A stretch of 64,000 nucleotides of DNA from Bryoerythrophyllum caledonicum (taxonomy: Eukaryota; Streptophyta; Bryopsida; Pottiales; Pottiaceae), in assembly GCA_963971425.1 (NCBI GenBank), contig OZ020523.1, positions 20,317,105 to 20,381,104 of the forward strand. The letters run 5' to 3'. Position numbers and translations under genes: made by a program. Position 1 is the first letter of the stretch. Each line of letters starts with the position of its first letter. The notes beneath the pieces are model-generated. The model searched no databases, had not been told where the DNA came from, and worked only from the letters and a program-made list of their open reading frames with translations. Shown in pieces: positions 6,593 through 30,570 of the stretch.

Positions 6593-6959
6593 CCAAGGAT
6601 TTAGGAGGTACACACTCTTGAGTAATTCAATTATGTTACCGTAGTGATGAAGCAAAACATGATTAGAATGGAAGTACAACACCATTTTTGTAAGATAATA
6701 TGAAGATGTATAGGCAAACGGCATCCAAATTGGAGAATCAAATGAAATAATATCTTTGATTGCAGACTTTATTTATAATATGATAGAAGTAATCCATATA
6801 CAAAACAAGCATCATCCTTTCCATGCAGGAAAAAACTTCTATTACGACCCAAAACATACACCTCAATTCCTAGTCAATGCACATTCAGGTATAGCCAAGC
6901 TTAATGTGCACTCGTACCACTCAGATCTTAAATCTACTTGTTCTTCTCTACGTCATCAG

Positions 6960-7930: not shown

Positions 7931-8344
7931 TTTATTTTTGTGGAATTGGATATCCACAATCCTCAGACTTCAAAACAGGAATCCATGGTGGCAATACAAT
8001 AGTTTATTTGAGAAAATGATAAACGGCTCTTTTTCAAACATAGAAGCAAAGAGAGAACAAAAACTTACAAAACCAACAATAACAAACGAAAAATTACAAA
8101 CAAATATCAAAGAACTGGCAACTGCCACTTGAATTACAAGATATGTACAGTACAACACATCAACACAATTATGTTTGATACCAATGAACTACTAATTTGC
8201 GAGCCCATCAGATATCATAATTGCGTGCGTTAATTCCATGTATTCTAAGCTACATGGATCCGAGCAAATTGTTGGATGACCAAAGGGATTCTCTTGCCGA
8301 AAAGATTGCAGCCCTAACTCTACACTACTCTAGAGCTTTTGGAG

Positions 8345-8983
8345 CTATAGAAGCAAGACATTGAGGAAGAACTTATTGTTCCATCCATCTCCTTTGTAGG
8401 ACCAAGTATTCGCAAGAAGCACATTCTCCGGATCATTAAGGACGTGCTTGTATGGATTGTCATCTATGATGATGATATTCTCCTTTGTAAAGGATCCACC
8501 TTTTGTAAAAAGGTTCTTCAACAACGTCTTCAGAAATACCTCCTTATCCGAGTTTTTAACCTTCAGATATTGAGGTACATTCCAAATCACAGCAGTTACG
8601 ACTCTCCTACAATGCTCTTGTCCAAATATGACTTTTGGTGAGGCGACTTTAGGGAAGAGGTAATTGACGATGCTACTAGTGGTGTTCAATTTCATCCAAC
8701 TCTAGACCAATATCGATGCAAACTTGAAAACATCGTCCAAAAAGGCCTTGCAGCTTGGACGAACATATACTAGCTTTGGGCCGACCTTGGCTGGAACTTT
8801 TACCGAGTGTGGCAGAGAACATGCATTGAAGGCTTGTGTAGCAGACCTCAAGCGGAATTCCTCGCATACACACAATATACCGTTCAAGTCAAACACAATG
8901 TTTAACCACGGTTTGACCACTCTAGGGGTTAAACGAGGAACACGGACTACGGCGCTATGAACGCTCTCCAGTGGCTTGACGAC
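8345..8983 (-). pseudogene. HAD (FCP1/SCP-like) domain exon of gene X, outer copy, with a nonsense codon
   Basis: The exon follows an acceptor (TCTAG|GTCGTC at 8,983) and opens in frame into WLNIVFDLNGILC, the first HAD motif. It continues with AKVGPK, VRPSCKAFL and, downstream, FGQEHC, KEVFLKTLLKNL and IIIDDNPYKHVL, the acidic motif typical of FCP1/SCP phosphatases. A TAG at about 8,712 replaces the Trp found in the inner copy (ITIWSS), so the frame is closed. The catalytic motif reads DLN instead of DxD. The exon belongs to the same gene as 8,984-11,661. Confidence 0.7.
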
Positions 8984-9111
8984 CTAGAATTCAGATGGAA
9001 AAGAGTGGAGGTACATATTACTAAACATTAAAAAATATATAACAATAGAGCACACTATATTATATGAAGAAGAAACTGCAACAGACAACACAATCTTTAG
9101 CCATGAAGTGG

Positions 9112-11661: not shown

Positions 11662-11690
11662 AACACCATATTCGTTATATTGGGAGATTT
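11662..11690 (+). repeat. Left terminal inverted repeat of inner element
   Basis: It reads AACACCATATTCGTTATA then TTGGGAGATTT. The right TIR is its reverse complement except for one A/T difference. Related ends are at 6,564 and 36,419. Confidence 0.9.
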
Positions 11691-12616
11691 AGCAACTCCC
11701 AAATTAACACATGTAGATCATAAGAGCTAAAGTGCACATCTAATTTCTATAATATGGAGGGATATGAGTTTCCATTAAATTGGGAGGTCATGTTTTCTAC
11801 AAAAATCCCTAGAAAAATAAGTACTACGGATAACATTGCATTACGAATCTAACTATAATATTGAAAAGAAGAACACATTAGTCGACACTTCTTTTATACC
11901 ACATGTGTTCATTGAATATGAATAGCTAAATATTCACACTCGATCCTATTAACCCGGATTAACACCATGCTCCAATTTAGCTAAAAGTGAGCTAAATGAC
12001 GGACAAATATCCACTTGTAAGAGAATTAGCTAAACACATTTTGATGAGCCTTTTTTTATTTAAAAGAATTTCAATTCTCCTTGTGGAATACACATTGGCT
12101 AAAAATATATAACGAGTTTCAAATGATGGTGCTCAGAAGTGGGAAAAAAATTGCATACACACTACCTCTCTTCGAACTAAAGTGTCCCCATCACTTAGAG
12201 GTGCAATGAACTCAAAAAGGCAATTCCACACACTTTAGCTCCACTTGACCTAAAGTGCGCACCATTACTAAGTACAATGAACTAAATAAGAAGATTTGCT
12301 CACACTTTAGCTCCACTAGAGCTAAAGTGCGACTCAACATCTACTTTCTATCATTCACCATGAAGACAATTACTGGTATTATTGGTTTCAAGATTAGAAG
12401 CAATTTATCATATTGTTATTTTAAAAAGAAAATAAAACATACTGCAAAATATCACCGATACGCAAAAATAATGGAGAGAATATTTCATAGCAATCATTGG
12501 CATCACATATAATAGTCATACAAATGTCTATAATCTCAGCACCAATGGATCTAACCATACTACATGAAGTATTACGCATCAGAATCCAAAATCTTGGAAA
12601 ACGAAAGTCCATTGAT
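11691..12616. other. Left subterminal region of inner element
   Basis: Non-coding AT-rich sequence between the terminus and the stop of the DUF7869-like gene. It holds two palindromes of the older arm type (about 12,230-12,260 and 12,298-12,327; CACACTTTAGCTCCA with the partner TAGAGCTAAAGTG). The part 12,050-12,330 is repeated in diverged form at 18,080-18,370, and 12,180-12,330 resembles 41,600-41,720 (reverse strand). Confidence 0.5.
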
Positions 12617-15457
12617 CTAAGTCCAATACGATTCGGACCTGGCAAGTGCTTCTAAAGAGGCCTTGATAATCGCTACTTGCCCCTTCGGAATTTTTGTAGT
12701 TGAATCTTGCACATGACCTCCATCCCTCTTTGAAGACCTAGGTTTCCATGCTGTCAAGATTGAATCGGTACTCTCCCACGTTATGGCTATCCCCTTTTCA
12801 ATTGTCCAACGAAGGTTGCTATCAGTATCCCAATCTTTGTAGAACTTCACAACATCCCGATCGCGCAATATAGGGCGGTAGAATTGGATACGCACGGTGT
12901 TTGGCATATCCGGATTAGAATTAGGATCTGAAATCGCTTGAGCAATCCAAAATGGGCGCTCGTCCCCATCACAAGGCCGCAATGCAACAAAATAGCCAGC
13001 AAAAAGATCACGGCCAACTCTAAAAGAAGGAGGTGGACGATCGCGTCTCTGGCCAACAAAATGCTCATCTTCACGGTACTCCTCACGAACCTCACCTTCC
13101 GCTGAGAACTCATCTTCAATGGCATGGGCAATTCGCGTCGTTGGCCAAAAGCCGTCTTCCAATGATATCGGTGTATCCATTGGAAGTATCAGAGCATCTC
13201 TAACATCGCGCCAATAATACGATAGCGGCTCAAAACGCGAACGGGCTTCAACAGACTCCCGCGATGATTGCTCCCAGTGATCGATGAATCCTGAAAGTCC
13301 CTTCACCACCTCATGGAGATGCCGCATCGTAGAAGGCTTCAATGCATCAGGTTCTCCGCGAGGCCATAAAGACCTCCTTTCAGAATCCTCCTTCCACAAT
13401 TTGATGCCACTACCTTCTCCTCCCTTAGAAAGCCAATCCTCATCATGGCAAAGGATTTTATACTTCATTACCGGACAACCACTTGAGTCCACATAAAACT
13501 TGAACTGATGAGCCTTTGTATGACCCTGCAAAGCTTCATCACCGTCCGCAATCATATCCCCAATGAACTTCTTAAAGTCAGGAACCTCTTGAATGAGATG
13601 CGGGATTGTGGGAACACTCTCATTTTTCATGAATGACTTCATGAGCAAAGGAATGGTTGGAAAACTCTCCTTCCTCAGTGTCATACTCCAACGTCCAAAT
13701 AATGCATCTATATCATCATGTGTATGACCAACTAGCATAAAGTTAACATATACCTCGCGGAAGATGCGTTTTGCAACAAGAAGAGACCAAAAACAGAAAA
13801 CAAATCTATTTTTGTTATCACCAACAGCATTGTCCATTTGCACGTTCAATATTGGTGGCAAAGGCCTCCCAGGAACTGGGATATCAGGAATCTGCCCTAA
13901 TGGATCCAAACACATCTCTGCACCCCGTAACACGGCCGCATACAATGGATGAGAACAAGATTCAGGAAAGAGTTGCCGGGACGATGACTTCGGAGGCGCC
14001 TCCAAGTCACGCAATAGTTTTGCGAACGACCCAACCGTGTAATTGGCATCATGGGAGTATAAATCAAGGCCGTAATGGGCGTAACGCTGGTCCACATGAC
14101 CATGGGCAAGCATGCCTGTGATTGCAAGAGGCAACTTCATAAGCCCATCTAAGTGCTTTGTTTTATGTGAAAAAACCGGGGACGCGGTCTTTGAGTGATC
14201 CATCTTATCATGCATGATGGTAAGAACCTCCCGGGGCGACGACTTTGATCGAAATCGGTTCAGGTAGTACAAGTCCCGATGTGAGAAGGCAGAATCGATG
14301 TGAACCTGCATCTTCTTTTGCCATAGCAGCGATGCTTGTGTTCCAGGTTGAGTAAGCTTCTTCTGATCCTGGTATTTGTCACATGTAGAACAACGGGCGA
14401 AGTTGTCTCCACCTCTCTTGGCATAGTACTCAGGAAAGCTCACTCGCCGAATCTTACTCAAGCTTGAGGTTGAGATTGGCGGCAATCCACAATCAGCGAG
14501 ATGATCATCAAGAAGCGGTATCTGATCCTTCCACTTAAAACTTGCAGGAAGGACCTTTGCCACAGCCTTCTCACCAGATGGGAGAACACGGGACTTGTGA
14601 GGCATGTGGTCCGCAAGTCTATCGAGAATGGCTCCAAGAGCGGCAGTAGCCACAACCGTATGACCTCTAGGCTTACGCAAACCGGTATTCCCATGGTGTT
14701 GAGCCGCATGACCAGCGGCAGCGTCCTTCGCATTCCGATAGAAAGTACTCGAACTTACACCCATGATTTTCATCCAAGCATGGGCACAAACGTCCACACC
14801 CTCTAGGGTCACAACCTTCCTACCCGAAGAGTTTCTATGAAACTGTCTATGAACGTCGAGTTTGATATGATTTCTAAACTGCACAATGGTCTCACAGTAC
14901 AAGCGCATCCGTAGGACTTTTATTTTATCTCTAGGATAGTGTTGTACACAGTTCTCACTGCAACAACAATTGCTCGCAACTGCGTTAATGGAAAGAGGGG
15001 TCATGAGAAATTCAACATTCCTGGACACTGTTGGACGTGTATTCCTTGAGGAATTGTCGTAAGAACGGGAGCTCCCACCTAGAGGTCTGTTACGCTCAAC
15101 CAACCAGACATTGTAAACGTCCCTAAGGCAATGATGGAAGAGACTCACACCGTTTAAGAAAACTTGTTGAATAGGCCAGGACTTAAACGAGTACCTCCAC
15201 TCATCAGGAGCTTCCTCCAGAACAAAAGTACTGGACACCTGTACTACAACATTCGAATCCCCAAGAGGACCAGAGGAACCTAGAAGTGCACTGGACCGGA
15301 CATTGCAAACCAACCCCTCCGCAACGCGAACACCCGAACCATTGTGAAGCGAAACAGTCATCCCGACCCAGAGACGGCGAGGAATAACATCAAACTCAGG
15401 AAGGTCAGGGTTCACGGGAGCGTCAACATGAACATCGTCGTCCTCCGAAGACGACAT
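12617..15457 (-). CDS. DUF7869-like protein, probable transposase, 946 residues, intact
   Basis: A single uninterrupted exon. I place the start at the ATG of MSSSEDDDVHVDAP (15,457), because upstream codons enter the palindrome-bearing spacer. An N-terminal small beta-like domain (about residues 45-125) is followed by a Cys-rich CCCSENC patch (about 168), a helical HAWMKIMGVSSSTFYR segment, a CSTCDKYQDQKKL motif (about 357), and the conserved core: HDKMDHSK (about 416), NVQMDNAVGDNKN (about 540) and GHTHDDIDALF (about 578). Family members with this core are known as DUF7869 proteins. The spaced Asp residues look like an RNase H-fold DDE/D transposase, which is an inference. The C-terminal ~120 residues (GYFVALRPCDGDERPFWIAQ) resemble a BAH/Tudor-like chromatin module. 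It is divergently oriented to gene X and is the only intact large gene of the element. Confidence 0.8.
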   Translation of the reverse strand: MSSSEDDDVHVDAPVNPDLPEFDVIPRRLWVGMTVSLHNGSGVRVAEGLVCNVRSSALLGSSGPLGDSNVVVQVSSTFVLEEAPDEWRYSFKSWPIQQVFLNGVSLFHHCLRDVYNVWLVERNRPLGGSSRSYDNSSRNTRPTVSRNVEFLMTPLSINAVASNCCCSENCVQHYPRDKIKVLRMRLYCETIVQFRNHIKLDVHRQFHRNSSGRKVVTLEGVDVCAHAWMKIMGVSSSTFYRNAKDAAAGHAAQHHGNTGLRKPRGHTVVATAALGAILDRLADHMPHKSRVLPSGEKAVAKVLPASFKWKDQIPLLDDHLADCGLPPISTSSLSKIRRVSFPEYYAKRGGDNFARCSTCDKYQDQKKLTQPGTQASLLWQKKMQVHIDSAFSHRDLYYLNRFRSKSSPREVLTIMHDKMDHSKTASPVFSHKTKHLDGLMKLPLAITGMLAHGHVDQRYAHYGLDLYSHDANYTVGSFAKLLRDLEAPPKSSSRQLFPESCSHPLYAAVLRGAEMCLDPLGQIPDIPVPGRPLPPILNVQMDNAVGDNKNRFVFCFWSLLVAKRIFREVYVNFMLVGHTHDDIDALFGRWSMTLRKESFPTIPLLMKSFMKNESVPTIPHLIQEVPDFKKFIGDMIADGDEALQGHTKAHQFKFYVDSSGCPVMKYKILCHDEDWLSKGGEGSGIKLWKEDSERRSLWPRGEPDALKPSTMRHLHEVVKGLSGFIDHWEQSSRESVEARSRFEPLSYYWRDVRDALILPMDTPISLEDGFWPTTRIAHAIEDEFSAEGEVREEYREDEHFVGQRRDRPPPSFRVGRDLFAGYFVALRPCDGDERPFWIAQAISDPNSNPDMPNTVRIQFYRPILRDRDVVKFYKDWDTDSNLRWTIEKGIAITWESTDSILTAWKPRSSKRDGGHVQDSTTKIPKGQVAIIKASLEALARSESYWT

Positions 15458-15614
15458 TCTGCATTCCAATGAGGTAAACATTAAATAACCCTGCCAAATA
15501 ATAATAGGTGAATATCTTGTAGGAATAGACATCAATGAAGAAGCATATGAAGAGGTAAAGTCTGGCGCTTGAAAATACATTTGATACAAGTGAATTGACA
15601 TTGAAGAACAAGCA

Positions 15615-16075
15615 AATTTAGCTCGACTCGAGGTAAACTGATGCGGTATTATATGACAAGTGGAAAATTTCATGCGATTAGTTTTTATCCGAATATGAAA
15701 TAATCTCACCCTCGACAGTGACAATTTGGCCCGATCCGACCTGATTTAATGAGTATATGACGCAATGTAATTTTATCCCGAGTCGAGATAAAAAGGCATA
15801 GAAAATAGGGTAGATCAGTTTAGCTCGAGTCGAGATAAACTGTCCTTCGAAAGAAGGTAAGACAATTTAGCTCGAGTCGAGCTAAACTGTCGAAACATTA
15901 TAGTAGGACAGTTTAGCTACATACGAGCTGCACTGTCCTACAATATTGAATCGACAGTTTAGCTCGACTCGAGCTAAACTGACAATAATGATATTGACCG
16001 ACAGTTTAGCTCGAGTCGAGCTAAACTGTCCTTCGAAAGAACGTTAGACAGTTTAGCTCAAGTCGAGCTAAACTG
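15615..16075. repeat. Cluster of eight palindromes upstream of the DUF7869-like gene
   Basis: Perfect or near-perfect copies of AGCTCGA(G/C)TCGAGCT flanked by TTT/AAA occur at 15,866-15,886, 15,958-15,978, 16,005-16,025 and 16,051-16,071, with degenerate ones at about 15,620, 15,775, 15,815 and 15,910. Two copies read ATC/GAT instead of AGC/GCT. They are 40-50 bp apart and separated by unrelated short sequence. They fill the probable promoter of the divergent gene. Role unknown. Confidence 0.8.
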
Positions 16076-17950
16076 TCCTTCCGCGATTCTCGGCGCCTTT
16101 GTCGGGATTCGTATGGGGAAACTCTTCCGCCTATGAATCTGACTCTCTGTATACTACAACCCAAATCTTTCCGTTAGTCGTCAAGAAACTCTCACTGATG
16201 CTTCAAAATCACAATAGCAGCTGGAACCAGCGCAATAACCCTACACACTGTCACATCCTAATTGCTAGAGACTGTGCACGGAGAATCCAAGAAGTATACA
16301 TTGTGTACCTTATGAAGAAGACAACCGGTACGTTGTTGCCTTACCTGCTCAACCGTGCGCAACCTATAGGTGTAGCCCTCTTCAAGCTCCGACAGTCGTA
16401 CTACCTCCAAGCCTCTCCACAACAACCTTGCACAACAACCAAAGTGAGAAGGAAACAAATGAAGAAAGTTTTCGAGTATCGGCGAGGTCACTCACGGACA
16501 CACGACCGTTTCAGAATTGGCGGGATGAAACTTCAGAATTGGCGGGGGGGGACTTTTTCACAGCCCCTAAAAAGTACAAATTCGAAATCTTAGCGGGAAA
16601 CTGAATCAACTATTTCCCGGTTGACTAAAATAAGGAAAGGTCAATACCTCGAATATACTCGCACATGCGAGTTATATACACGGTTTTAGGGTAACGCTCA
16701 GGGTTTTGGATAGGTTTAGGTTTTGGGTTTAGGATTAGGGTTTAGGGTTTGGAGTTTCGGGTTTAGGGTTTGGAATTTAGGTTCAGGTTTAGGGTTCACG
16801 GTTTAGAATCCTTGATTTAGGTGATATCTTTTGATGTCAATTCATTTCAATATAATAATACTTTGAAGATTCATGATATTGACAATTCAACTAAGGTATA
16901 GGGAAATGTAGAGAAGATATTGAGATGATTAGAAATAGTTTTTATTACAATCCAAATAGGACTTATCTATTATGTTTAAATCAAAGACCTTAACAGACGA
17001 GTAGCATTTTAAAAAACAAAAAAACATATTATATGTGCACGTGTATTTTTAGCCAAAACAAATGTATTAAAACATGCTTTGGACATCATTTCTTTGGGGT
17101 TTTAAAAATGTTCGTCATGTAACTATTTCGTCATCAATTTAGAATGTGCATTCTTTGGCAAGAATCCCAATGTCCCCATGGTCTGGATTTGCAATTGAAA
17201 TTGGTTACTTTCCACTTAGAGGTACTCAAAGACTTGAAATATGCGCAAACTAATATTAATTTTGGATTGAAATATCTTATATTTGAGTTCACATTGTATT
17301 TTCATGACTTTAGGGTGTGGCAATCTAAGCATGACATAAAAGATGGAAGAATTCTTGACCATATACAATTTATTTCATGTTTTGACGTGAAATTGAAGAC
17401 TTTGTCATTTGTAAAACATAGAGAGTGGAACAATATTAAAAGATTTAAATAAGAAACGGAGAGACCTCCTCATGACAAAAAAAGGATAATCAAAATATTA
17501 AATATAACTAATACAAAGTGTATCACTTAGTGCATCAGGCATAATTTAATGTTCGTAATGTAAGTAATTTTGAATTTATTTATACATGCAAAAATGGAAT
17601 AATTAGTTTTTGAGCACGTTCTAGTGGTCGCAAATTATATTTAAAATTCTCAAAATCTTGTAGAAGGATGATAAAAGTAATGAGGCATATTTATAAGTAA
17701 TGTATTTTCTCAATGAGAGGCATATTTATAAGTAATTTATTTTTTCAATGAACGTCTTCATTAAAAGTTATGCGAGCCAAAAGAGAAACTTCTCGATTGC
17801 CGGCACATCGAGCAACCTAAAAAACCTTTTGCTATGACACAGTATGGAATGTGGTATTTTCAATACATAGAAGTAATATTAGAACAAATGATATTGTGAA
17901 AAAATATGTTATTTTTCTAGTGAAAAATAAGATTACATATTCATTCATCT
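16076..17950. other. Non-coding interior of the element with degenerate telomere-like repeats
   Basis: Between about 16,680 and 16,815 the plus strand is a run of TTTAGGG variants (GGTTTAGGTTTTGGGTTTAGG and similar), the plant telomere unit in degenerate form. An open frame at 16,099-16,593 has no recognisable motif and no intron or start support, so I do not call it. The rest is AT-rich, with nothing supported. Confidence 0.5.
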
Positions 17951-20150
17951 ATTTTTCACATTGTCACATATTATTGATTTAGGGTACCAAGAATACTTAG
18001 ACTTCATATCCACTAAAAACTAGGGGATCGTCATATTTTTTTGTTTTTTAATATTACTATTGGAGATTTAGATCCACATATTATGAAAATCCTTTTAAAA
18101 TTCAAAAGATTACTATTCCACTTGTGAAATACTTATCCATAAAGAGAAGTACGGAGTTCAAAATGATTGTTTGTAGAAGTGGAAATACACATTGCACATA
18201 CATCAGATCGGTTTTTAGCAGAGGTGTGCACCATCACTACATGTAGTGAACTAAAAGGAGTGTGCGCACACACTTTAGCTCCACTCGTGCTAACGTGTGC
18301 CTCATCACTAGGTGCAGTGAACTAAAAAGATAATATGCACAGATTAGCTCTCCTAGAGCTAAATTGTGCACCATCACTAAATGGAGTGGATTAGAAAGCA
18401 AAAATGCACTATGTAGCTCCAGTATACTGAAGATGGCTTCTAGAGAAGTGTAAACTAAATAGGAATGCACACAGTAATTGTAAAATTTACAATAAGTGTA
18501 GTGACAAAACTATATTACACTAAATGCCAACTACTACACTAAATGTCAATCCTAGTAAATAGTAGAACATAAAGTTTTTACTTGTCGACAATTACTGTAG
18601 GGAACCTTAATCATGATTTGATTACATCTTGAGCATCATAGTAAAGAAGGGTTGAGTGCATGTAGAAAAGGAAGAATTTGCAAGAAAGAGCTTGGAAATA
18701 AGCGGACGTAGGTATGGAGCAAAAGGAAAATATAAAAATTTGGACAAAGTAGAATGTAAAATATGGAGGGAAAATGAAACTACAAGTAGAAGACTGGAAA
18801 TATAAGAACATTCTTCTGGAAACGAAAATGAGAAAAGAATGGAATATTGGAAAAGGAAAAAACTTAAACATACAATAAATATAGGAATACAAGTAAAATA
18901 CTCATTAGATATCCATCACATAATACGCATTCAATGTGCATTACATATTCAGTAAATATTAATTAAATACTCATTAAATATTCAAATACACATTAATTTT
19001 ACATTAGAAATTTATGCACTATTCATTAACTATTCATTAACAGTGCATTAAATACTCTTTAAATAATCATTAAATATATAAATATTAATAAACTATCATA
19101 AATATACTTTGAAAACTTCCAACATTCAATAAATAAAATTCCAATATTCTTTAATTGTGCATAAAAGTTACAGATACACCAATATACATGAATTATCCTC
19201 TAAAAAATCATTACAAAGTCATTAGTTATTGGCTAAATATTTGATTACACATTAAATATTCATTAGATAATATTAAATAATGTAAAGAAAATGCAAGAGA
19301 TGGGAATGAGAATAGTTGTGGATAAGAGGATAAGAAATTGAGGTTGAAGATGAGACGAAGAATGAATGCATGGCGACCGGTAGGCTAAAGACTTTGAGCT
19401 TATACTATTTATCAAGTATCAAAATTGTGTGCTAGGGAAGAGTTTTGATAGAGGGCTATTACGAAATGAACTGTAGTAGGTGAACGAATGAGGGATAATA
19501 TTCAAGACAATGGTGGCTAAAACTAGTTGCCAACTTGTTGACAAATAGTGTACTAGAAAAAGATAATCTCCACCGGGACCGAGTGACCGGAATGCAAGAA
19601 TAAACACGGTAAAGCCGACTCCGTGAGGCCTAGGCCAGTATACCGGCCCACTGCAGTGGCGGCGCCGGTTCCTCTAAATAGTAAATTTACAAAAAGTACA
19701 GGGGACACCAAAATTCCCCGAGAGCATGTGTTCAAGCATGAAATTACACGAGGGAATTAAAAGAAATCAATAAAAACCTCCAAAAAAATTAGCCTACTAT
19801 AGAGTTAGTGCTGGGCGTTGGCGTTCCCTCATAGTGGCCAATTCGGGGACGGTGCGGGGGGAAAAGGGTGACCCCCCCACTTCATCTCAAACTTGGGCAC
19901 CTTCCCGCTGGCGTGGAAAATTCTCCATCAGGGGGGGAGATGCTCTAACAACTGTATTTGTACCGTTACAGTAAAAGCAAAATGAAGTGAAAAGTACAGA
20001 AAAAATTCACAATTTAGCTCTATTAGAGCTAAAGTGTACACCATCAGTAAATGTAGGGAACTATAAAGCTAATACGCACACTTTAGCTCCATTAGAGCTA
20101 AAGTGTCCACTGGCATTTATTTTATAATTATACAATTGCAAGATGTGGTC
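17950..20150. repeat. Left-end-like sequence and AT-rich repeats inside the inner element
   Basis: From about 18,045 (TTGGAGATTTAG, like the inner edge of the left TIR) through 18,370 the sequence parallels 12,050-12,330, including the paired palindromes CACACTTTAGCTCCACTCG and its relatives at 18,340, 20,010 and 20,075. This looks like a second, decayed left end. Between 18,900 and 19,280 lies a low-complexity stretch of CATTAAATATTCATTAAA-type units. A GC-rich patch at 19,560-19,930 is unexplained. Confidence 0.45.
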
Positions 20151-21438
20151 TTAACATACTTATTGTCTATTCGATTGTCATAGAAAATAATATCAAACTC
20201 ATAAAAAAGCAAAACTTGAATTCAAAGTAATAGAATCTTAAAATCGTAGCTTTAAAACTCTCTTAAGTGTGCTTGACCTAATAATTGGTGTAGGAGGAAC
20301 TTATATATATCGATGGTAATGAATTTACTCCTTGTGTAATGCAAAAATTGAAATCGAGTGAAGTGAAAGCCAGCTGATCCACTAAAACCATGAAAGAAAA
20401 CTAAACACTAAATACTATAAACGTTCACTTTCGTCCAATTTAAATTTGTGTATTATTGAGAAAATGTCAATTTAGAAGTTTTAATTGAGATCATACGAAA
20501 GAAATTGGAAATAATAACTTTCCTTTTGCTACCTGTTCGTTGCCCCAAAATATCCAAAATTGTAGTGTTAGTGGCTCCGAAAAATTGTGTTGGAAATTTA
20601 CGAGTACACAAATACTACAGGCGCGTAATATCTTGAACTTATTCTGGTAAAATTAAATTGGCTTCTTAAAAGTCCGGGTATCAGTAACGAAGGTGAAAGA
20701 TTTGTGGAGCATCCGGCATAATACCCGGGAGTTACACCCCAATATCGCAAAGGGTATCCCGAGGGTATCTCGGGACCACCAAACGGCCACAGGGTTTCGA
20801 CCCTCACGGCTATAGGTGGCCCAGAAACTTCCCCACGAAGTCGTGGCACAAGCCATTTTTCTATTCTTTTCGTTGCAGTCCAGGTTTTCCGTGTACTTCC
20901 AGGCGTTGTTGTTTTCTGAGTTTTGTGAGTTGATGCGTTGGTTTGTGTTAGTTTCGTTATCTACAGGGATTGTTATGTTTGTGTACACTGTAGCGCTGCG
21001 TATAGGCTTCCGTGTGCAATTTACTGGAGTCTAGGGTTTCATGCGCATAGGGTTTGTAGGACGTGCGATTTGTTGTTGTGTGACTTCGTGTACACTGCAG
21101 CGCCAGAGTTTAGGGCTGTTTGCGTGAGATTGTGTGAGTTTGTGAGAGTTTGTGTGAGTTTGTGAGAGTTTGTGTGAGTTTGTGTGAGTTTGTGAGAGTT
21201 TGTGGGAGTTTGTGTGAGTTTCTGCGAGTGTGTGAGTTTCTGTGAGCGTGTGTGAGTTTGTGTGAGTGTGTGTGAATTTCTGTGAGTGTGTGTGAGTTTC
21301 TATGAGCGTGTGTGAGTTTCTGTGAGTGTGTGTGAGTTTCTGTGAGCACGTAGAGTCTGAAACGGCCGTGCGTGGAGGATTGACGTGATCAAGTAACAAG
21401 ACTTCCAGCTTTTCCAGTCGGATTTCTCAGTTCTAAAG
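20151..21438 (+). promoter_or_regulatory. Probable promoter and first 5' UTR exon of gene X (inner)
   Basis: No coding gene is supported. From 21,108 to 21,350 there are about twenty degenerate units of GTGTGAGTTT(G/C)TGTGAG. The stretch ends at TTCTAAAG|GTAAGT (21,438), a strong donor that begins the first leader intron. The equivalent place in the outer element (34,250-34,800) has the reverse-complement type of repeat (CTCACAAC), supporting a conserved leader region. The transcription start is not visible. Confidence 0.45.
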
Positions 21439-21903
21439 GTAAGTGCACTCATTTAGTCTTGCATTTCTTTTGATATTTGTGTAGTTTTGCTTTTGATATG
21501 ATGTGTCGAAACATAATATATGTGTAGCATTGCTTTTGATGTATGTGTCAGCACGTAGATGAGAGTGTATATTGGTTTCAATGTGCTGGTTTGAATGTGG
21601 TGATTTGAATGTGGAGATTTGAATGTGGTGGTTTTGTGGTGGTTTGTGGATATTTGTGGTGGTCTGTGCTAGTTTAAATGTGTTGGTTTGAACTGGTGTA
21701 AGTGTGCTACTTTCTGCTAGTTTGAATGTGCTGGTTTCAATGTCATTGTTTCAATGTGTTGAATTCAATGTGTTTATTTCAAAGTGCTGAATTTCAATTT
21801 GCCCATTTCAAAGTGTTGATTTCAATGTGAAAGATTTCAATGTTTTGGTTTCCATGTGCTACTTTGATTGATTTTGTGTGTGGGTTTGTAATTGTTGTTG
21901 CAG
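21439..21903 (+). other. 5' UTR intron of gene X with TTTGAATGTG-type repeats
   Basis: Donor GTAAGT at 21,439 and acceptor TTGTTGCAG at 21,903. The interior is a degenerate array of GTTTGAATGTG and GTTTCAATGTG units (about 21,570-21,860). No palindromes of the AGCTCGA type are found in this intron. Confidence 0.5.
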
Positions 21904-22064
21904 GAAGTTTAGTTCCAGCAGAATTTGTCTGGGATTAAGGTTCATAAGCAATGGCTGAAAGGTAAAATCCATACTCTCACCCAGGAGCCCTGAACCCTAC
22001 GCCTTCAGTATCATATAACGAATGACGAATCTGTACAATCTGCGATAAATACGCTATTCATTGA

Positions 22065-22705
22065 ACACAGTTTAGCTTGAGTCGAGCTAATGTGGGAAAT
22101 CCATATTTGTACTATTGTCCACACTTTAGCTCGAGTCGAGCTAAAGTGTGCCCCCACTGTGCACTAATATCCACACATTTGCTCGACTCGAGCTAAAGTG
22201 GGCCTTTTCTGTGCACATAAGGCCACACTTTAGCTCGAGTCGAGCTAAAGTGGACCTTTTCTGTGCATCTTTGGCCACACTTTAGCTCGAGTCGAGCTAA
22301 AGTGGACCTTTTCTGTGCATCTTTGGCCACACTTTAGCTCGAGTCGAGCTAAAGTGGACCTTTTCTGTGAACATTTGGCCACACTTTAACTCGACTTGAG
22401 GTAAAGTTTGATCAATGAAGCAAACACAAAGTTGCACTTTGGCGCAACAAGAGCGTAAGTGTGCCAAATGTGCACAAAAAAGTCCCAATTTAGCTCGACT
22501 CGAGCTAAATTGTGGACGATAATACACTATCGAGGTCACATAATATCTCGACTCGAGATAAAATGTACGACTTCGTACGTCTTCGGTTGCGCTAAAAGAG
22601 ACTACTCGAAATAAAATCTTAATATCAACTCTTAAACACTGGGTTTAAAATAAAACATGACCTCTCTGTAAAGCCTACACACTTTACCTCGAATCGAGCT
22701 AAAGT
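22065..22705. repeat. Palindrome array in gene X intron 2, including a 55-bp tandem repeat
   Basis: The 1.5-kb intron 21,962-23,458 contains twelve palindromes, ten of them here. A perfect 31-bp one is 22,120-22,150 (CACACTTTAGCTCGA, G, and its reverse complement). From about 22,214 to 22,385 three to four 55-bp units, each containing one palindrome followed by GTGGACCTTTTCTGTGCAT, run in tandem. Two more single copies sit at about 23,037 and 23,360. Some copies change TTTAGC to ATCTC or TTAAC on one or both arms. Confidence 0.85.
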
Positions 22706-22854
22706 GTGAGAGAATGAACATAAACAACAACCCAAACACAACACTATTCGGACTTTAAACATTCCAAATGTATAGTAATCCAATGATACCGACGACCCAA
22801 CTCATGTCCACTTCTCGTTAAATTCTCACATGCGTGCAAGAACTTCAGTCACGC

Positions 22855-23285
22855 TTCAACCACTTGAGAACCTCAAAGAGTGAGGTTCGTGAGTGATTTA
22901 AGGGTGAACTGAAGCTCTTTCACAGTTCTGAGAGTTAAACGAGAAGTAGCCATGATTTGAATAAAAATGTATAGGAAAGTCGTTTGAATGAATACTGTAA
23001 GAGTCAGAACTGTTCAGCTATGCATTGCATGCATGAGCACTTTAGCTCGAGTCGAGCTAAAGATGAAGCTAAAACTTGAATACAACATTGATACATTGGT
23101 GTAATTGCAGTCTCCTAACTCAACTCACGTCTACTTTTCGTTCACCTCTCATAAATCGTGCAAGAGCTTCAGTCCCGCTTAAACCACTTGAGAACCTCTA
23201 AGAGTGAGGTTCGTGAGTGATTTGAGCGTGACCTGAAGCTCTCCCACATTTCTGAGAGTTGAATGAGAAGCAGGCATGAGTTGAT
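22855..23285. repeat. Pair of imperfect direct repeats in gene X intron 2
   Basis: The segment with TTCAGTC(A/C)CGCTT, CACTTGAGAACCTC and GAGTGAGGTTCGTGAGTGAT occurs at about 22,850-22,925 and again at 23,165-23,240. Each copy is also internally self-complementary (GAGAACCTC against GAGGTTC, and CTTCAGTC against GACCTGAAG), so it could fold into a long hairpin. Confidence 0.55.
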
Positions 23286-24929
23286 TGTAAGCGTCTAAGA
23301 GAACGTCCTAAATGTCTAAATTCTGTTGCAGAGTATTACTCACATACTTGAATAACGGTACACTTTAGCTCGAGTCGAGCTAATGTGTGACCTCGCCGTC
23401 CTAATCGGTTGATCATTAGAGCAATCTAATATCTTTGCTCTATTTTGTGTTTGTGCAGATCTGAGAGGGACAGGATGGTGTCGCAGCTGCAGCACTTCTT
23501 CATGCCAAAGCCTGTCGACGTTGACGATGACGATGGAGACGACAACAACCACTTGGACTACTGGGAGCTCAAGGACCCATCGATGACACTGAAGTGGACG
23601 CTTCTGTGGGCGACCTATACGGATCATTTAGTGTTTGGTCAGACCTTCGCTGGTGCTATCGTCGATCCCCAGCACATCGACTTCAAGACCAAAGTTACTG
23701 ATGTAGTCCACGAAGATAACGATCACGTTAAGTTGTCGTGTGAGACGACCTCTGAGTCCTTAGATCCGTATTTCTTTACTATTATAGTAAACAATAGTTC
23801 ATCTCCCTTCTGTATCTTGGATTTGGTCGATTCTCTTAGGTCATCCAAATTTGAGGAAATAGTGACTCAGGTCGAGCATGAGATCTCCCTTAAGAAATGG
23901 GAGACTAGTAGCGGACAGCCACTGAAAGCAAAGGCTATAGCTAATAAACTGCGCGTCATTCTCTCTAGAATGAGTACCTTTGCCGCTCTAGATAAGGCGA
24001 AGAATATTGCGGCAAGACGGCCGATAGAACTTTCAACGGTTTCGGGGGCCGTGACCGGTAGCCAGGACATGAGTCAGGCGTCGGTACCGGTTAGAACTCC
24101 AGGTGCAAGAACAAGTCGAAGCACTCTGCGCAACACGCTGTCTGCTTCCCCCGTCAAGAAGTGCTCAGCTGCCAAGAAGCCGGAGACCTCTTCAAGAAAT
24201 AAGTCGAAGCTCGTATCGGAGGAGGAGCAAGCCAATTCGATGGCCTCTGCACTCTCGGAGCTCCCCAAGGCGCTCGGATACGGAGAGACAATCGACTACA
24301 ACAACGTCCAACAGATTTACCAGAAATTCTGGACGGAGTGTCAGAGCTGTTTTTTCAAAGGCGACAGAGAGATGAAGATCGAGCTTGACGTGATGAGGTT
24401 GCATAATGCACCGCCGGAGTGGACGATCCGTGCGTTCGAGCCTCGGGGCATGGAGGAGTTGAAGCATTACTACCTCCAAATGCCAGACAAGACGCAGAAG
24501 CAAACTCTCTGCGTCATGCCGAAGCTCGACACTATGCCGACGACTGTGGAGGAGCTCAGCGACTGCGACTTCTACATCATCAACGGCCAGTACAGCGTTG
24601 CTGCCTCAAAGGAGATGATTAACGGCAACGTTCCGGAGGTGATGAGAAGGCACTTCCGAACATGGCAATGTTACATTGTCTGGACGCAAGATCCGGAGAA
24701 GCTGAGGAAGATTTCCGCATATTATAATCGCGTGAATCATTTGGTCCAATTCAAGCCAACGTGGGCAACAAATATCCCTGGCTCCCGTGCTTTGTGGATC
24801 CAAGCTGGGAGACCAATGCCGAAGCACTCCGCCATAGGCGTTCGCGGGTCTCACAGGTCAGGTCGGAGAACTGCAGTTGAAATGGCCAATGACAAGAGGT
24901 TTGAGGTAATATATCTTAACCAAGGTCAT

Positions 24930-24958
24930 GCACTTTAGCTCGACTCGAGCTAAAGTGC
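24930..24958. repeat. 29-bp perfect palindrome in gene X intron 3
   Basis: Arms GCACTTTAGCTCGA and TCGAGCTAAAGTGC around a single C, 25 bases after the 5' splice site (24,906). Confidence 0.9.
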
Positions 24959-25025
24959 AAGTTCGCTCTGTATCTGTATAGTCATGTGTATTGATTGAAA
25001 TCGCTTTCATTGTCTGCTTTTGCGT

Positions 25026-25056
25026 TGCAAGTTAGCTCGACTCGAGCTAACTTGCA
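25026..25056. repeat. 31-bp perfect palindrome in gene X intron 3
   Basis: Arms TGCAAGTTAGCTCGA and TCGAGCTAACTTGCA around a single C. The outer arm differs from the neighbouring palindrome at 24,930, yet pairing is complete on both sides. Confidence 0.9.
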
Positions 25057-26512
25057 GTGTTTGGACCCTACTAGACATGATAATATTCCTGCTTTATTGT
25101 ATACTTAAACGACCCTTTTATGTTCTGCCCAGCCATTTCTCAACGCGGTTCGTGAGCGCTTCGCAATGATCGACGTTGCGAAGAGCCAGGCTGCGCTCAA
25201 GAAAGCCGGGAAGGCGAAGGAGCTTTCAATTACGAATGAGGTGAAGATAATCACCGCGACAGATGAGACCTTCGAGCTGTGGTCCGATGTCATCTCTTCT
25301 GCGGCGCATGGCAACCTCATCAACGTCGATTCAACTTCGACGCCCTTGGCAAAGTTCAAGGACACGAAGTCTTGGGTTCCTGAGAAGGATGAGGTGCTGA
25401 CGCGCGAGTTCTTCAAGTTTCTCGGCAACATGACCGAAGCCGATCACGCGAAAATGTGCAAGCACATTCTCAATCGATCAGGGCCATCTCGGAAACTGCC
25501 CTACCCTAAGGTGGTCATCAAGCTGCCAAATTCTGCGCTGGAGGTTTGCGATACAGCCCGGGACTGGGTGGATCGGAGGAAGAGGAAGGAGGTCGCTCGG
25601 ATGGAGCTTCAACTATCAGGCCGGAGCTGGCCTTCTTCAACAGCACTGGAGCGTACAGACGTTCAAACTGGCGGACGTTTAAGAAGAACTACAACATTAG
25701 CAAGGCCTCAAAGCGTGCCCTCTTGGATTGGGGTCCACCGGATTCGTACTACGCCAACTCGAGGCAGACGCAGTTTCGCAACTGCAAATGTGAAGATCTC
25801 TCTCCGTACGCGAAGGAGTTCTTCAGAGTCTTCATCGATGTGCGGTCGCGGTTCGTTTCACCAGTGGGAGCCCTGCACTTCCGTTCTTACAAGGCGGCAA
25901 CGAATTCGCTCGGGACGTGGCCTTCGGATTCATGGCGCAACCTGGGCTGCAATGTGAAGCTCGGCATCATCGACTTCCGGAACATCCCTGGGTTCTCTGG
26001 GACGTCGTCGTCGTCGTTGGAGAGGCCCTTCTTCGACGAGTTCATGACGATGTTCGCATCGAAAGGGTAGCCTCCCCTCACCGATCTTCCAGCCTGGCTC
26101 TTCATTTGCGGCAACGACCAGTCACACCTTCAAGTGACAGCGTTTGCTGAGGGCCCGTCGTTGTGCCATGCATACGATGTGCTGTAGTCGAAGTATCTTC
26201 CCTCCGAGAACGAGCGCCTCGGAGGATTCACGCCGAAGACCAACAACGCTCTAGACCCGGTTCGGCTCCTCTTTCTCTTCAAGAAGGAGCTTACGGTGAT
26301 CCCAGCCGTAAAGAAGATCTACGCAGCTCCAGAGCATGTGTTGTACACGAAGCTGCGCAAGTACAACGAGTTGGCGTACTCCATGAACATGAACGAGATG
26401 AGGATGGAGTTCTTCGTCAAGCTCCTGGAGCTGTTCTACAAGAGGGGGGATTCTGTTGTCCAGCTGTTTGGCGGGACGAAATTACTGACAGCAAGTGTGG
26501 TAAGCATCCCTG

Positions 26513-26750
26513 CAGTTTAGCTCGAGTCGAGCTAAACTGTTTATTCCCTTTCTGACTCGTGCATAGTTTCAATGAGGTCATGCCTATGCTGTTTGGTGAA
26601 ACTTTAGCTCGACTCGACCTAAAGTGTCGGCTTTTTCTTGTATGATTTTATGGATGTCATTAACTTCGTTCGTATCATTTGAAGTTATAATAGCCAAGTT
26701 TTTGTACCAGCAATTGTTTGTATTGAGTTTAGCTCGACTCGACCTAAATT
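26513..26750. repeat. Three palindromes in gene X intron 4
   Basis: A perfect 27-bp copy lies at 26,513-26,539 (CAGTTTAGCTCGA arms). Imperfect ones at about 26,600 and 26,728 carry GACCTAAA instead of GAGCTAAA. All three are inside the 279-bp intron 26,500-26,778. Confidence 0.85.
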
Positions 26751-27837
26751 GTATCTTGTTCAATCCATTGGTGTGCAGATGCTCGACCTGGAAGCATTCT
26801 GCATTTCTCACGACACCGATGAGCAGGATCTCGACGACGCCTTTGAGGTCGGCTTGACGTTGGATCGGGCCGATTTCGATATTTCTGCGTATCACGTCAA
26901 CTCGGAGATCTTCCCCGAGCTTGGAGATGCCGTTGGAAAGGGGAAGGGGAAAGCCATTATTGACCTCGACGATGAGGAGGAAGATGCGGAGCCGAGCGCT
27001 GTGGTTGCGTGTCCGATCTCGAGCACCGTCACTCCGGATAATGAGTCCCAGGACGACTTCGTTGACGCTACTCCGCCTGAGTTTCAGAGTGCATCTCAAT
27101 CTGGAGCAGGGGACACAATCGCTTCCTCGCGACAACGACTCGACTTCCCGGAGTTGGATTCGTTGGAGATTTCCGACAGGCCTCATTCAGCTCCCACCTT
27201 GGGCGCTTCAACCGCTCGTCTTGCGGCTAAGAAGAGGAAGGTTGCTAGCGCGAGCACGCGCTCTCCTTTGGCTATCGCGAGCAGCGCTCAGGATGACAGC
27301 AGGTTGATCTTCCTTGAGAAGAAGCTCGAAGAGGAGGCCACCTGGATGAGGTTGATGGAGCAGCGACTTGCGGAGCGCGACGAGGAGCTCAGGGATCTGC
27401 AGCGGAGGCGTGACGATGAAATGAAGAGAGACCAAGATCAGAGGCATGCCGAGATGATGTTCATGATGCAGAGATTTATGTCGGCTAATTTGCCTACTTC
27501 CGCCACATCACCGCCCGTAGTTATTGCTGCAATCCCCCAGCCTCCCGCATCGCCGGACGGCGGGTCTGCGAGTCCGTCTCGCGATTTGCAGCTTCCATAT
27601 CCGTCGGTTACCTCCCCCGTCTCCAGTGGGGCTCAATTGCTTCCTGTTCTCCCTTCCGCGTCGGCCCGCCCCTCTTCCCCTCCGAAGTCGCCCGATCGGG
27701 ACGAATCTATCGCAGATGTCCCCAGGTCATCGTCAGGTTAGTGTAACGTAGTTGCGAGTGTATAGAGGCAGAACATTTTGTAAATGTCCAATTTTGTACT
27801 CCAGTATTTTTTTTGTTAATATTACGGTGCACGGCGA

Positions 27838-27866
27838 GCACTTCAGCTCGAGTCGAGCTAAACTGC
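27838..27866. repeat. Palindrome in gene X intron 5
   Basis: The perfect 15-bp core AGCTCGAGTCGAGCT lies in the intron 27,737-27,947. The outer arms are mixed (TTC on the left, AAA on the right), so pairing outside the core is broken at one position. Confidence 0.8.
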
Positions 27867-28165
27867 TTGACATCTAACCACTGTGACTTGTATCCGTGTC
27901 CTCTGTGCCCATCCGCTGATAGGTGTGAAGTTGTTGAATTTTTCCAGATCTAAGTTTCGGTGATGACGCAATTGCTCAACCAGTCATAGAAGAGGTCGTC
28001 CAAACTGCAGTCCCAGTCATAGAAGAGGTCGTCCAAATTTCAGCCGTGCTCGTAGACGAGATCAATCATGATTCTGAGCCACCTCTTCTTGTCCCAGAAC
28101 CGTGCCCCCAAATGGATGTCGGGCACTCCGGGCCCCTTGACAGCATGTAGGGTTCGTTGGGATCG

Positions 28166-29091
28166 ATGGGTGCCCGAGACGAAATGCTGCAGGACGATGA
28201 AGTTCTCGAGGTATTCTTCTAACTCTTTTCGAACTCCACTCATTCCCCCCATCACTCCTCCCCCATTTATCTCTTTCGTTCTACGTATTGTTGAATCGTC
28301 GTTGTTAATGAATCTGTAGTAATATTGGTCGTTCTCCTGGCATTTGCGAACCAGGTCGGCGAGGCATCAATAAGTGATGCCAATAATCTAGAAGAAATAC
28401 CTAGAGTCCATTCAGATATCGAGGGCAGGTGGTTGAACATTGTGTTGGACCTCAATGGGATTCTATGCACGTGTGAGCCGTCGTGGCAGGCCAGAGGATC
28501 CAGGGACTCTATCCCGTCCATTCACTCGGCTTTGCTGCCGGCCGAAGTAGGCCCTAAACCTTGTTGTAGATTCGAGTGCGCCCTGGTTGTGCTGAGTTCC
28601 TTACAAAGTTGTCTAAGATTGCCACCATCACGATCTGGAGTTCGATGATGGAATCTACAACGCGTCAGATATGTAATTATCTTTTTCAGCATAGTTCTTC
28701 GTACCCTCTCAGGATCTTTGGTCAGGAGAGTTGCGATAGGGTTCCCGAGCGTAGAGTCGGTAGCAGAACATTCTACATAAAGGAATCTGGCACTCAGAAG
28801 GACATCTTCTTGAAGACCTTATCGAGCCATCTCTTCAATAGGTTGGGTCGTGAGTATACTCCGGCAAATACGCTTGTCATTGACGACAGCCCGATTAAGC
28901 ACATGCTCAATTTGCCGGAGAACGTCCTTCTTCTTCCATCATGGTCGCACAAACATGTTGGCGCGAGAGACGACTCTGTATTGTTGGAGGAATTGCTGCC
29001 ATATCTCTCTGACCTTCATCAATTTCCGGGTGGTCTAGCGCAGTACCGGGCCGAACATCCCTCTGGCCGGGAGATGTTTTATAATGATTAG
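28166..29091 (+). pseudogene. HAD (FCP1/SCP-like) phosphatase-type domain, inner copy, frameshifted
   Basis: Exons 28166-28210 and 28355-29091. The first ATG is 18 bases after and in frame with the TAG ending gene X, so this is best seen as the C-terminal domain of gene X separated by one TAG. Exon 2 starts VGEASISD and reaches WLNIVLDLNGILC. FCP1/SCP enzymes remove phosphate from phosphoserine using DxDx(T/V); here it is DLNG, lacking the second Asp, so activity is doubtful. Later motifs are KDIFLKTLSSHL and LVIDDSPIKHML. Between GPKPCCR and VRPGCAEFL (near 28,575) the reading frame shifts by one. The 142-bp intron 28,211-28,354 has no palindrome, unlike the other coding introns of the cassette. 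Confidence 0.7.
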
Positions 29092-29537
29092 AAGACGTGT
29101 GGTCAGTCTGCGAGTATCTGGAACGCAATCCAAGCGTTTCAAAATCTCCGCTCTTAATGCCGTTGGGAACGCTTAGATTCCTTTTACACTTTAGGTCGCA
29201 TAGAGCTAAACTGTATCGATTGACTGCAGCTCGATGTTGTAAATTTTGTTGGACCATTTTCTGTCTATATATTTTTTTATAAATGAAACTGAGATGTTTC
29301 ACCGCTTTGTTTGTTGTGGGAATTGGATATCTACTGCTGATGGAATGTCGTGCTATTCTGAATGATTGGAATTTTCATCTATTGTTCTAAGGTATGTCAG
29401 TGTCGCTGTGGTTGAAATTTCTATAGGACTGTGACTGTCGGGCGTCCGTGGATTCCTTGCTAGGGCCAGAGGAGTTCGTCCTTTCTCTTCGGAGTAAAGG
29501 GCTTTTGTTGCACTCTGCTGCAACCGCGCAATCAACC
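29092..29537. other. Spacer between HAD exon and small ORF
   Basis: Contains one degenerate palindrome at 29,184-29,214 (ACACTTTAGGTCG against GAGCTAAACTGT). An open frame starts at a GTG (29,448), but the first ATG in frame is at 29,538. Probably the 3' UTR of gene X/HAD and the promoter of the small ORF. Confidence 0.4.
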
Positions 29538-30276
29538 ATGGATTATTCGACCATGGCAGTGGACGACGGAGTTGTTGAAAGCCCTATTGCGCGGGAGCCA
29601 ATTCATGATAGGAACAACTCGCCTTCGCCGCAGTGGCCTCGTTTAGTTCCTGGGTTCCCGCCTTTAAATCCGGATAATTGTACTCCAGCAAAGCGTATTC
29701 TCTACGACGGTTTAATGGATGGTACTTCCCAACGCTCGCTTGCGGTGCGTGTTATGATGACCTCCAATTTATTGCACTATTGCGATGTTTTGGCCTAGAC
29801 AATTTTGGTTTGTTGTTGAGCTACATTGCACTAATGTAGTTTTGGTTCATTTAAGCTTGTTTTTTTTGTTGGGGGTTAAATGTGCTCTGTGGATCTTTCT
29901 TTCTGCATTTTAGCTCCATCCGACCTAATGTGCGCTAGGATGGATCTCAATGATTAAATTTTCATCTGTGTTGTGTAGCAGTATTCGACCTAAAGTGTAT
30001 TTCTTTGGATTGTATGTGGCGCCTATTGTGCAGGGACCATTCGGTAAATGTCTCCGTCCTCGAACTTTGTCTGGGGATGCTACTAGAGGCAAATGCTCTC
30101 CTTCCCCCACCCGCCGGCACTCGCTGCCCAAATCAAACAGTGACGAGGTGCGTAGGCGGGGTTTGCAGCGTCTTCTAGAGAGTCCATTAATGCAAGAGAA
30201 TGGCACAACATGGACAAGGCAACGTCAGAGGGCTTTTTTGAAGACGCGTATAGAAGCTTATGGTGGAACTCCGTAG
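29538..30276 (+). CDS. Small basic protein of unknown function, two exons, 149 residues
   Basis: Exons 29538-29744 and 30034-30276, joined in phase (SLA|GPFGKC) and ending in TAG. The first part is acidic to neutral and Pro-rich (PRLVPGFPPLNPDNC); the second is basic (CSPSPTRRHSLPKSNSDEVRRRGLQR) and ends TWTRQRQRAFLKTR. The 289-bp intron again holds two degenerate palindromes (about 29,906 and 29,975). It is the last gene before the right terminus. The outer element has a weakly similar remnant in the same place, which supports it as part of the cassette. I do not recognise the family. Confidence 0.55.
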
Positions 30277-30537
30277 ACCATTTGATTAGTGATAGGACGA
30301 TTGTGTTTTGCCTCGGGGTGAATGAGTGGTTTGTGATTTTTTTTCATGAAGTTTTAAATAAAGCTTGGAATAATGGTACATGCTTCTTTTAGCGTTACCA
30401 TTTTTTGGTACATTCGGCTAATTTGGTCCATCCATGTAATGGTATATAGTATTCTTGGTGCATTGTTGATATGCTTTGCACCTACAATTGTCTATATATA
30501 TTGATACTTTAAAGATCATATATCTTCAAAATCATGG

Positions 30538-30566
30538 AAATCTCCCATTATAACGAATATGGTGTT
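30538..30566 (-). repeat. Right terminal inverted repeat of inner element
   Basis: It reads AAATCTCCCATTATAACG then AATATGGTGTT, and is followed by the duplicated CAAT at 30,567-30,570. It pairs with 11,662-11,690 at 28 of 29 positions. Confidence 0.9.
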
Positions 30567-30570
30567 CAAT

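Follow-up and report, generated by a model that had tools for sequence, protein, structure and literature searches.

A giant terminal-inverted-repeat transposon of the moss Bryoerythrophyllum caledonicum with a DUF7869 gene as candidate transposase gene and an array of 27-bp palindromes

Main finding

A stretch of 64,000 nt from the moss Bryoerythrophyllum caledonicum (OZ020523.1), referred to here as the window, contains at positions 11662-30566 an 18.9-kb element that is a real, many-copy DNA transposon and one of at least two related families. The element carries a gene for a protein with the domain DUF7869, a second gene of several predicted exons, called gene X, with an FCP1/NIF-like HAD region, and about 35 copies of a 27-bp palindrome. 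With high probability, it is a large DNA transposon with terminal inverted repeats (TIRs) whose transposase is the DUF7869 protein and in which gene X is accessory. The host genome that was searched comprises 437 Mb, with the window at C11:20317105-20381104; the features of the element are collected in Table 1.

Ends, target-site duplications and copies

Both ends are defined to the base, as a preliminary description of this DNA had claimed. The TIR AACACCATATTCGTTATATTGGGAGATTT begins at 11662 and its inverse at 30566, with 28 of 29 bases alike, and a target-site duplication (TSD) of CAAT lies on each side. The 13-base end AACACCATATTCG occurs 828 times in the host genome (403 on the plus and 425 on the minus strand), compared with four matches (2 + 2) to the reversed pattern, which served as control. 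Among 100 end matches listed, 15 neighbouring plus/minus pairs face each other at a distance of 16-20.5 kb, while strand shuffles of the listed ends gave a mean of 4.2 such pairs and none of 2000 reached 15.

Twenty end pairs, chosen by eye among the end matches listed, were fetched, and 15 of them are flanked by an exact 4-bp direct repeat whose sequence differs from place to place. The five pairs that do not have it are L013, L015, L021, L023 and L045. Three of these are improper pairs, because L021 and L023 join ends of the same type and the right end of L015 is foreign; L013 has no TSD, and the TSD of L045 matches at three of four bases. Together with the second family described below, these numbers answer the concern, raised in the preliminary description, that the TIRs and their duplication might occur at this locus only.

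Two of the duplicated pairs are 404-bp miniature elements, with the TSDs CATC and CAAC. One of them (L004; C1:2188617-2189020) is built around a large central hairpin; a variant palindrome, TTTAGGTCGAGTCGACCTAAA, lies close to its left end and an imperfect palindrome close to its right end. The miniature elements, which keep the ends and, in the one of the two that was read, a palindrome near each end, have presumably been moved in trans.

Three full-length copies, A, B and C, were fetched and compared piecewise with the window copy. A and B are 96.7-98.3% identical to it over nearly the full length; for C the identity is 87-96%, and some stretches are absent. Since the copies are alike along their length, the whole 18.9 kb is the element. 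This includes about 7.7 kb without recognisable genes (15746-23429), which are 96.7-98% identical between the window copy and A and B, and which contain 10-bp repeats (21068-21386), telomere-like TTTAGGG runs (around 16716-16809) and a 52-bp tandem repeat bearing palindromes. The large size and the region at about 15.8-23.4 kb that lacks recognisable genes could also be expected of a composite or segmental repeat of older date, with unrelated genes that happen to be flanked by a small TIR element. Such an origin is extremely improbable, being contradicted by the near-identity of A and B over practically the whole length, by TSDs that vary, by a clean empty site and by a second family with the same gene pair.

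An empty site and a second family

The insertion sits in a minus-strand homolog of the element's own gene X, and the two genes are 36% identical in exon 1. The preliminary description had held that a gene frame is restored when the element is removed, and this is borne out: in tblastn frames, the homolog keeps the same reading frame across 30570/11661, and the flanks joined with one CAAT are found uninterrupted at all 40 scored places (of 84 candidates), with 311 of 311 bases covered at 90-92% identity. The junction alignment of six of those 40 places shows CAAC instead of CAAT. As the joined flanks are repeated in the genome, the interrupted gene belongs to another repeated family, the window copy of which is incomplete.

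A DUF7869 query from Physcomitrium gave 49 scored places in the genome, 37 of which are frames of 953-956 amino acids with 52-54% identity, and 21 of these 37 have no stop. Such a DUF7869 place lies 13-18 kb away from at least 26 of the 40 gene X sites, in matching relative orientation (same strand), and within 60 kb of at least 28 of them. A complete second-family copy at C9:22599165-22623870 is 24,706 bp long, with ends that agree at 28 of 29 bases and CTGT on both sides. Six further copies, taken from plus-strand copies, measure 22,793-23,128 bp, match at 28 of 28 bases at both ends and are flanked by TTGT, AAAA, TAGT, CTCT, TTTA and TCCG. All seven copies examined, which span lengths of 22.8-24.7 kb, carry a 4-bp TSD, and their terminal bases are as in the first family. 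Terminal sequence, TSD length, gene pair and a divergent gene order are thus common to two families whose gene X has strongly diverged.

The DUF7869 protein as candidate transposase

The DUF7869 protein matches Pfam PF25273 with E=6.6e-43 (147 bits, against a curated cut-off of 26). It has 103 homologs, the organisms named among them being the mosses Ceratodon purpureus and Physcomitrium patens; all 40 homologs that were scanned match PF25273, and nothing but DUF7869 exceeds the Pfam cut-off in them, the next best match being a topoisomerase zinc ribbon (E=0.0043). The best 150 of 3608 first-look candidates in the host genome were scored, all of them above the Pfam cut-off and many with frames of 1066-1087 amino acids, while none of 14 control genomes gave a match.

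The preliminary description had singled out the Asp residues in HDKMDH, QMDNA and GHTHDDID, and these are among the most conserved acidic residues. Across 75 aligned proteins, D420 never varies, D417 and D542 each differ in a single sequence, and D584 occurs in all 74 that have a letter there; 41 residues separate D542 from D584. The order of strands and helices around these residues fits beta1-D, beta4-D and alpha4-D in a crude Chou-Fasman propensity average, which is weak evidence, and the protein may thus adopt an RNase H-like fold. It had also been put forward there as the best transposase candidate, and conservation and purifying selection bear this out; the fold is predicted from the pattern, and catalysis is likewise a prediction because no transposase profile matches DUF7869.

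The frame of 946 residues is open in the window, as previously described, but in 19 of 22 copies compared, codon 944 is a stop codon. This is the usual stop of the family, so that the window copy reads three residues further. The frequent internal TAG of the DUF7869 copies was considered as a sign of decay and rejected, being this same stop. Half of 20 copies (L049-L068, window copy included; 48 scored) have no stop before codon 944. The ratio of nonsynonymous to synonymous polymorphism (pN/pS) against two diverged copies is 0.25 and 0.13, and by this measure the gene is under purifying selection.

Two matches to other proteins were set aside. A search of the PDB with the DUF7869 profile gave a single match, to an ATP synthase subunit (E=0.027), which is taken as chance. 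The second match, to the Tc3 helix-turn-helix (E=0.0027, below the cut-off), falls within a segment rich in Ser, Thr, Arg and Lys and was discarded. The profile search of the proteins against transposases, which had been proposed at the outset, gave no transposase profile match. The ends might have belonged to a known superfamily with another transposase; among the open reading frames (ORFs) scanned, the Pfam matches above cut-off are DUF7869 and the NIF/FCP1-type HAD.

A third class of DUF7869 genes is represented by L107 (C3:18235000-18244999) and L108 (C9:16365500-16375499), with an open frame of 1087 amino acids in a common repeat unit of about 7 kb. Its right end reads inward AACATGGAATTCGCTAAATAT, and the sequence ...GCGAATTCCATGTT at this end is exact over 27 bases in seven of nine copies, matches at 26 of 27 in one and was not found in one. 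The class has no AACACCATATTC end, and no left end was found in the copies compared. L107 also contains 24-bp GC-rich palindromes, GAGGGGTCGAGGCCTCGACCCCTC.

Gene X and its HAD region

Gene X had been described as a gene of about 1,300 residues fused to a HAD domain. The HAD domain is matched by PF03031 (E=3.6e-16 on 28570-29091 in the window and 1.3e-17 on copy B), but the window holds no single intact frame: exon 2 has a frame change at about 25615 and stops at about 26070-26150, and the HAD exon a frame change at about 28560. Copies A and B have exon 2 as a single frame of 469-470 amino acids and the HAD exon in one frame each; their exon 1 is short or broken, and likewise their DUF7869 frame.

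FCP1-type enzymes carry a second Asp in HAD motif I. The motif reads VLDLNGIL in copy B, with DxN in place of DxD, and DLNGIL is found in both families (L071:1432-2283, minus strand, and the second-family remnant of the window within 8200-9200, minus strand). The missing second Asp suggests that phosphatase activity may be changed or lost. In the PDB, nothing matches the HAD exon at E<=0.01.

Among the 36 homologs of exon 1, the motif INGQHSVAAS is strongly conserved. Presumably, this motif resembles ParB/sulfiredoxin proteins, and one of 37 gene X members scanned weakly matches a ParB-like family of phage proteins in PHROGs (E=0.042). For exon 1 itself, no Pfam match exceeds the cut-off, none is listed for the 36 homologs, and the best PDB match of gene X (E=0.16) is taken as chance. 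A protein search with the joined gene X exons of the window found none, and two peptide patterns scanned against viral contigs gave 82 pattern matches, of which none was confirmed as a relative. The 123-amino-acid frame at 29427-29798, the "small basic ORF" of the preliminary description, has no Pfam match.

The presence of gene X in both families, its 36 homologs and the weak ParB-like match are what would be expected if the cutting were done by gene X, or by a factor provided in trans, and DUF7869 were accessory or cargo. This is improbable, as gene X is disrupted in the window whereas DUF7869 is open, and as exon 1 has neither a Pfam match above cut-off nor a credible PDB match. Only D274, D338 and E322 are at least 90% conserved among the acidic residues of exon 1, which by itself does not decide about an active site.

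Proposed mechanism and points against it

With DUF7869 as the transposase, the protein would bind the 29-bp ends and cut by means of a DDE/DDD-type site formed by D417 or D420, D542, and D582 or D584. The element would be joined to its target with a 4-bp stagger, the repair of which would give the 4-bp duplication, and it would move by cut-and-paste rather than copy-out. Gene X, with its FCP1-like HAD region, would be an accessory factor in both families, and gene X or the transposase may recognise the 27-bp palindromes as internal sites.

Several observations weigh against this account. Sequence searches in Pfam, NCBIfam, PHROGs and PDB gave nothing beyond chance level that ties DUF7869 to a transposase, and pN/pS among near-identical copies is 0.30-0.77, a weaker sign of selection. 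The third class has a different right end, and DUF7869 is therefore not confined to the ends of the first and second families. In none of the window copy, A and B are the DUF7869 frame and every exon of gene X open together, so that a complete working copy was not found among these three, and no excision event was seen in the copies and sites analysed. Finally, since gene X is present in both families, a role of gene X as the recombinase instead of DUF7869 is compatible with the sequence.

DUF7869, an uncharacterised domain that is very abundant in this genome, gains a probable job in this way, for which the defined ends, the 4-bp TSD, the clean empty site and the second family speak. Transposase profiles miss DUF7869, so such elements are likely to be unclassified in repeat annotation.

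A network of palindromes

Neither the palindromes nor the second family appeared in the preliminary description. The 27-bp palindromes, of the type CACTTTAGCTCGA-N-TCGAGCTAAAGTG, number 38 in the element at up to eight mismatches; the loosest few may be chance, for which reason the count is given as about 35. The window has 38 matches to the 21-base core with up to two mismatches, 31 of which fall in the element, while shuffles give an expectation of 0, and the exact 21-mer occurs 3562 times in the genome versus 0 for its reversed form. Each of the 60 distinct palindrome places listed is less than 20 kb from an exact element end, in a zone that makes up 6.3% of the genomic stretch concerned, and 41 of the 60 are enclosed by facing ends separated by less than 60 kb.

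The two arms of the palindromes co-vary. Symmetric changes number 16 in 34 distinct copies, next to 78 asymmetric ones, compared with 5.7 when the arms are re-dealt, and none of 5000 shuffles reaches 16. The second-family part of the window has palindromes of its own, TTCAGCTC..GAGCTGAA, instead. A sequence that drifts but stays symmetric is compatible with a dyad-binding protein, with a hairpin in RNA or DNA, or with arm-to-arm copying repair.

Palindromes sit in spacers and introns, beginning 25 bp into intron 1 and 13 bp into intron 2 of gene X at the predicted splice sites, and the second-family gene X of the window also has one about 100 bp upstream of exon 1. A palindrome-like translation (LARxELN, FSSxRAK, QLxSS-stop) is found in 19 of 36 gene X homologs, mostly in a tail behind the exon-1 donor. 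With identities of 32-63% between these 19 and the window protein, the place of the palindrome seems to have been kept, as judged from a comparison at the protein level.

A wider interpretation is tentative and, on balance, doubtful: the element may represent a new giant plant transposon superfamily that has a DUF7869 transposase and in which gene X, with its ParB/sulfiredoxin-like motif and DxN FCP1-like HAD, acts on some 35 self-complementary 27-bp sites, the splice-adjacent palindromes being DNA sites, splicing hairpins or both. The palindrome network is a separate puzzle that is accessible to testing in a tractable moss.

Feature coordinates and surroundings

Table 1. Positions of the element's features and of the interrupted second-family element within the window
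Feature	Position	Strand	Remarks
Left TSD, CAAT	11658-11661	.	equals 30567-30570
Left TIR, 29 bp	11662-11690	+	DUF7869-side end, then AGCAACTCCCA
Three palindromes, 27 bp	12158-12329	.	downstream of DUF7869 gene
DUF7869 gene, putative DDE-type transposase	12617-15457	-	single exon, 946 codons + stop; conserved D417, D420, D542, D582, D584
Palindrome array, 8 copies	15614-16075	.	upstream of DUF7869 start codon
Palindromes	18271-20105	.	at 18271, 18340, 20010, 20079
Palindrome array, 11 copies	22068-22706	.	partly on 52-bp tandem repeat
Two palindromes	23038-23387	.	upstream of gene X exon 1
Gene X exon 1, 477 codons	23475-24905	+	INGQ(H/Y)SVAAS motif; GT at 24906; homolog frames end similarly, '...V'; predicted splice site
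Two palindromes, gene X intron 1	24931-25054	.	first 25 bp in; palindrome-like translation at same place in relatives
Gene X exon 2 region	25109-26499	+	GTAAGC donor at 26500; 5' splice boundary approximate
Three palindromes, gene X intron 2	26513-26751	.	first 13 bp in; last ends 27 bp before acceptor
Gene X exon 3	26779-27736	+	predicted from GTGCAG/ATG and CAG/GTTAGT
Palindrome, gene X intron 3	27839-27865	.
FCP1/NIF-like HAD exon	28295-29154	+	of gene X or separate gene
Right TIR, 29 bp	30538-30566	-	gene X-side end, then CCATGATTTTG
Right TSD, CAAT	30567-30570	.
Interrupted second-family element, left part	6564-11661	-	base-exact end 6564; HAD exon remnant 8258-8770; part of gene X exon 2
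Rest of interrupted second-family gene X	30571-32940	-	exon 1 at 31537-32940, 36% identical to inner
Second-family own-type palindromes	31403, 31447, 33044, 33297, 33676

The cluster of elements is flanked by a 94%-identical direct repeat of 5.9 kb (112-6077 and 44815-50743), the right copy of which holds pieces of an amino-acid transporter gene (Aa_trans). The repeat looks like a tandem gene duplication split by nested transposons. A decayed DUF7869 gene on the plus strand at 37500-41254 is about 80% identical in its DNA to the inner one over two stretches, which places it in a family near the inner one; it was considered as a part of the interrupted element and rejected. A degenerate end, AACGCCATATTCA, lies at 36435-36447. 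At the end of the window, an open frame on the minus strand (63386-64000) with an S-adenosylmethionine-dependent methyltransferase domain (PF08241, PF03141) runs off the edge. An Rfam search of the 64-kb window gave no match.

Relation to known transposons

The authors of Lanisha are reportedly those of the Ceratodon genome work. Lanisha was proposed as a superfamily in Repbase Reports 2020, as a cut-and-paste element called EnSpm-like (excerpt of PMC12730594), and the element of the window could be a Lanisha or other EnSpm/CACTA-type element of the CMCT group, already described from mosses, with DUF7869 as a diverged EnSpm-like transposase. The group, which comprises EnSpm/CACTA, Mirage, Chapaev, Transib, Plavaka, ESTA and Lanisha, resembles the element in having TIRs and short TSDs of 2-5 bp (excerpt of PMC12730594). 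The named DUF7869 homologs come from Ceratodon and Physcomitrium, the end of the element reads CACC...GGTG from its third base, and C(2)C and H(4)H motifs occur in the protein, at 356-359 and 416-421 respectively. CMCT transposases are characterised by C(2)C and H(3-4)H between the second D and the last E, and most members have 5'-CA..TG-3' termini (excerpt of PMC12730594). The C(2)C of DUF7869, however, precedes all the nearly invariant acidic residues, and neither motif lies between D542 and D584, the predicted second and third acidic residues. The bases next to the TSD are AAC..GTT in all 15 pairs that have a duplication and in seven second-family copies, AAC being part of the search pattern, and DUF7869 is the sole Pfam match above cut-off in the 40 homologs, with no CMCT match in the element. 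An assignment to Lanisha or another CMCT lineage is therefore unlikely.

Other groups share single features with the element. The TSD of AcademX is 3 or 4 bp, which the 4 bp of the element fits, but Academ lineages carry a helicase or nuclease (excerpt of PMC10045372), and no such domain was found in the ORFs scanned, in a comparison by description. The integrase-like Ginger1 and Ginger2 have TSDs of 4 or 4-5 bp (excerpt of PMC10045372), like the element, which differs in that its scanned ORFs have no rve integrase match. Giant transposons of Ectocarpus (KDZ, EnSpm and Sola-1) are generally longer than 10 kb and reach more than 30 kb (excerpt of PMC12477816), and the element is likewise giant, with extra genes. 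Among the KDZ group, Kyakuja has 7-bp and Zisupton 8-bp TSDs (excerpt of PMC12730594), in contrast to the 4 bp of the element, which has no KDZ Pfam match.

The element protein is a clear member of PF25273, a domain of unknown function, and neither the name DUF7869 nor PF25273 was found in the literature searched, in which no title or abstract describes these ends. The nuclease of Academ is of the XPG type. Set apart from Lanisha and Academ by their descriptions, and with a Repbase entry that may exist, the element is probably a new superfamily within a known kind of mobile element, with no new kind of mobility.

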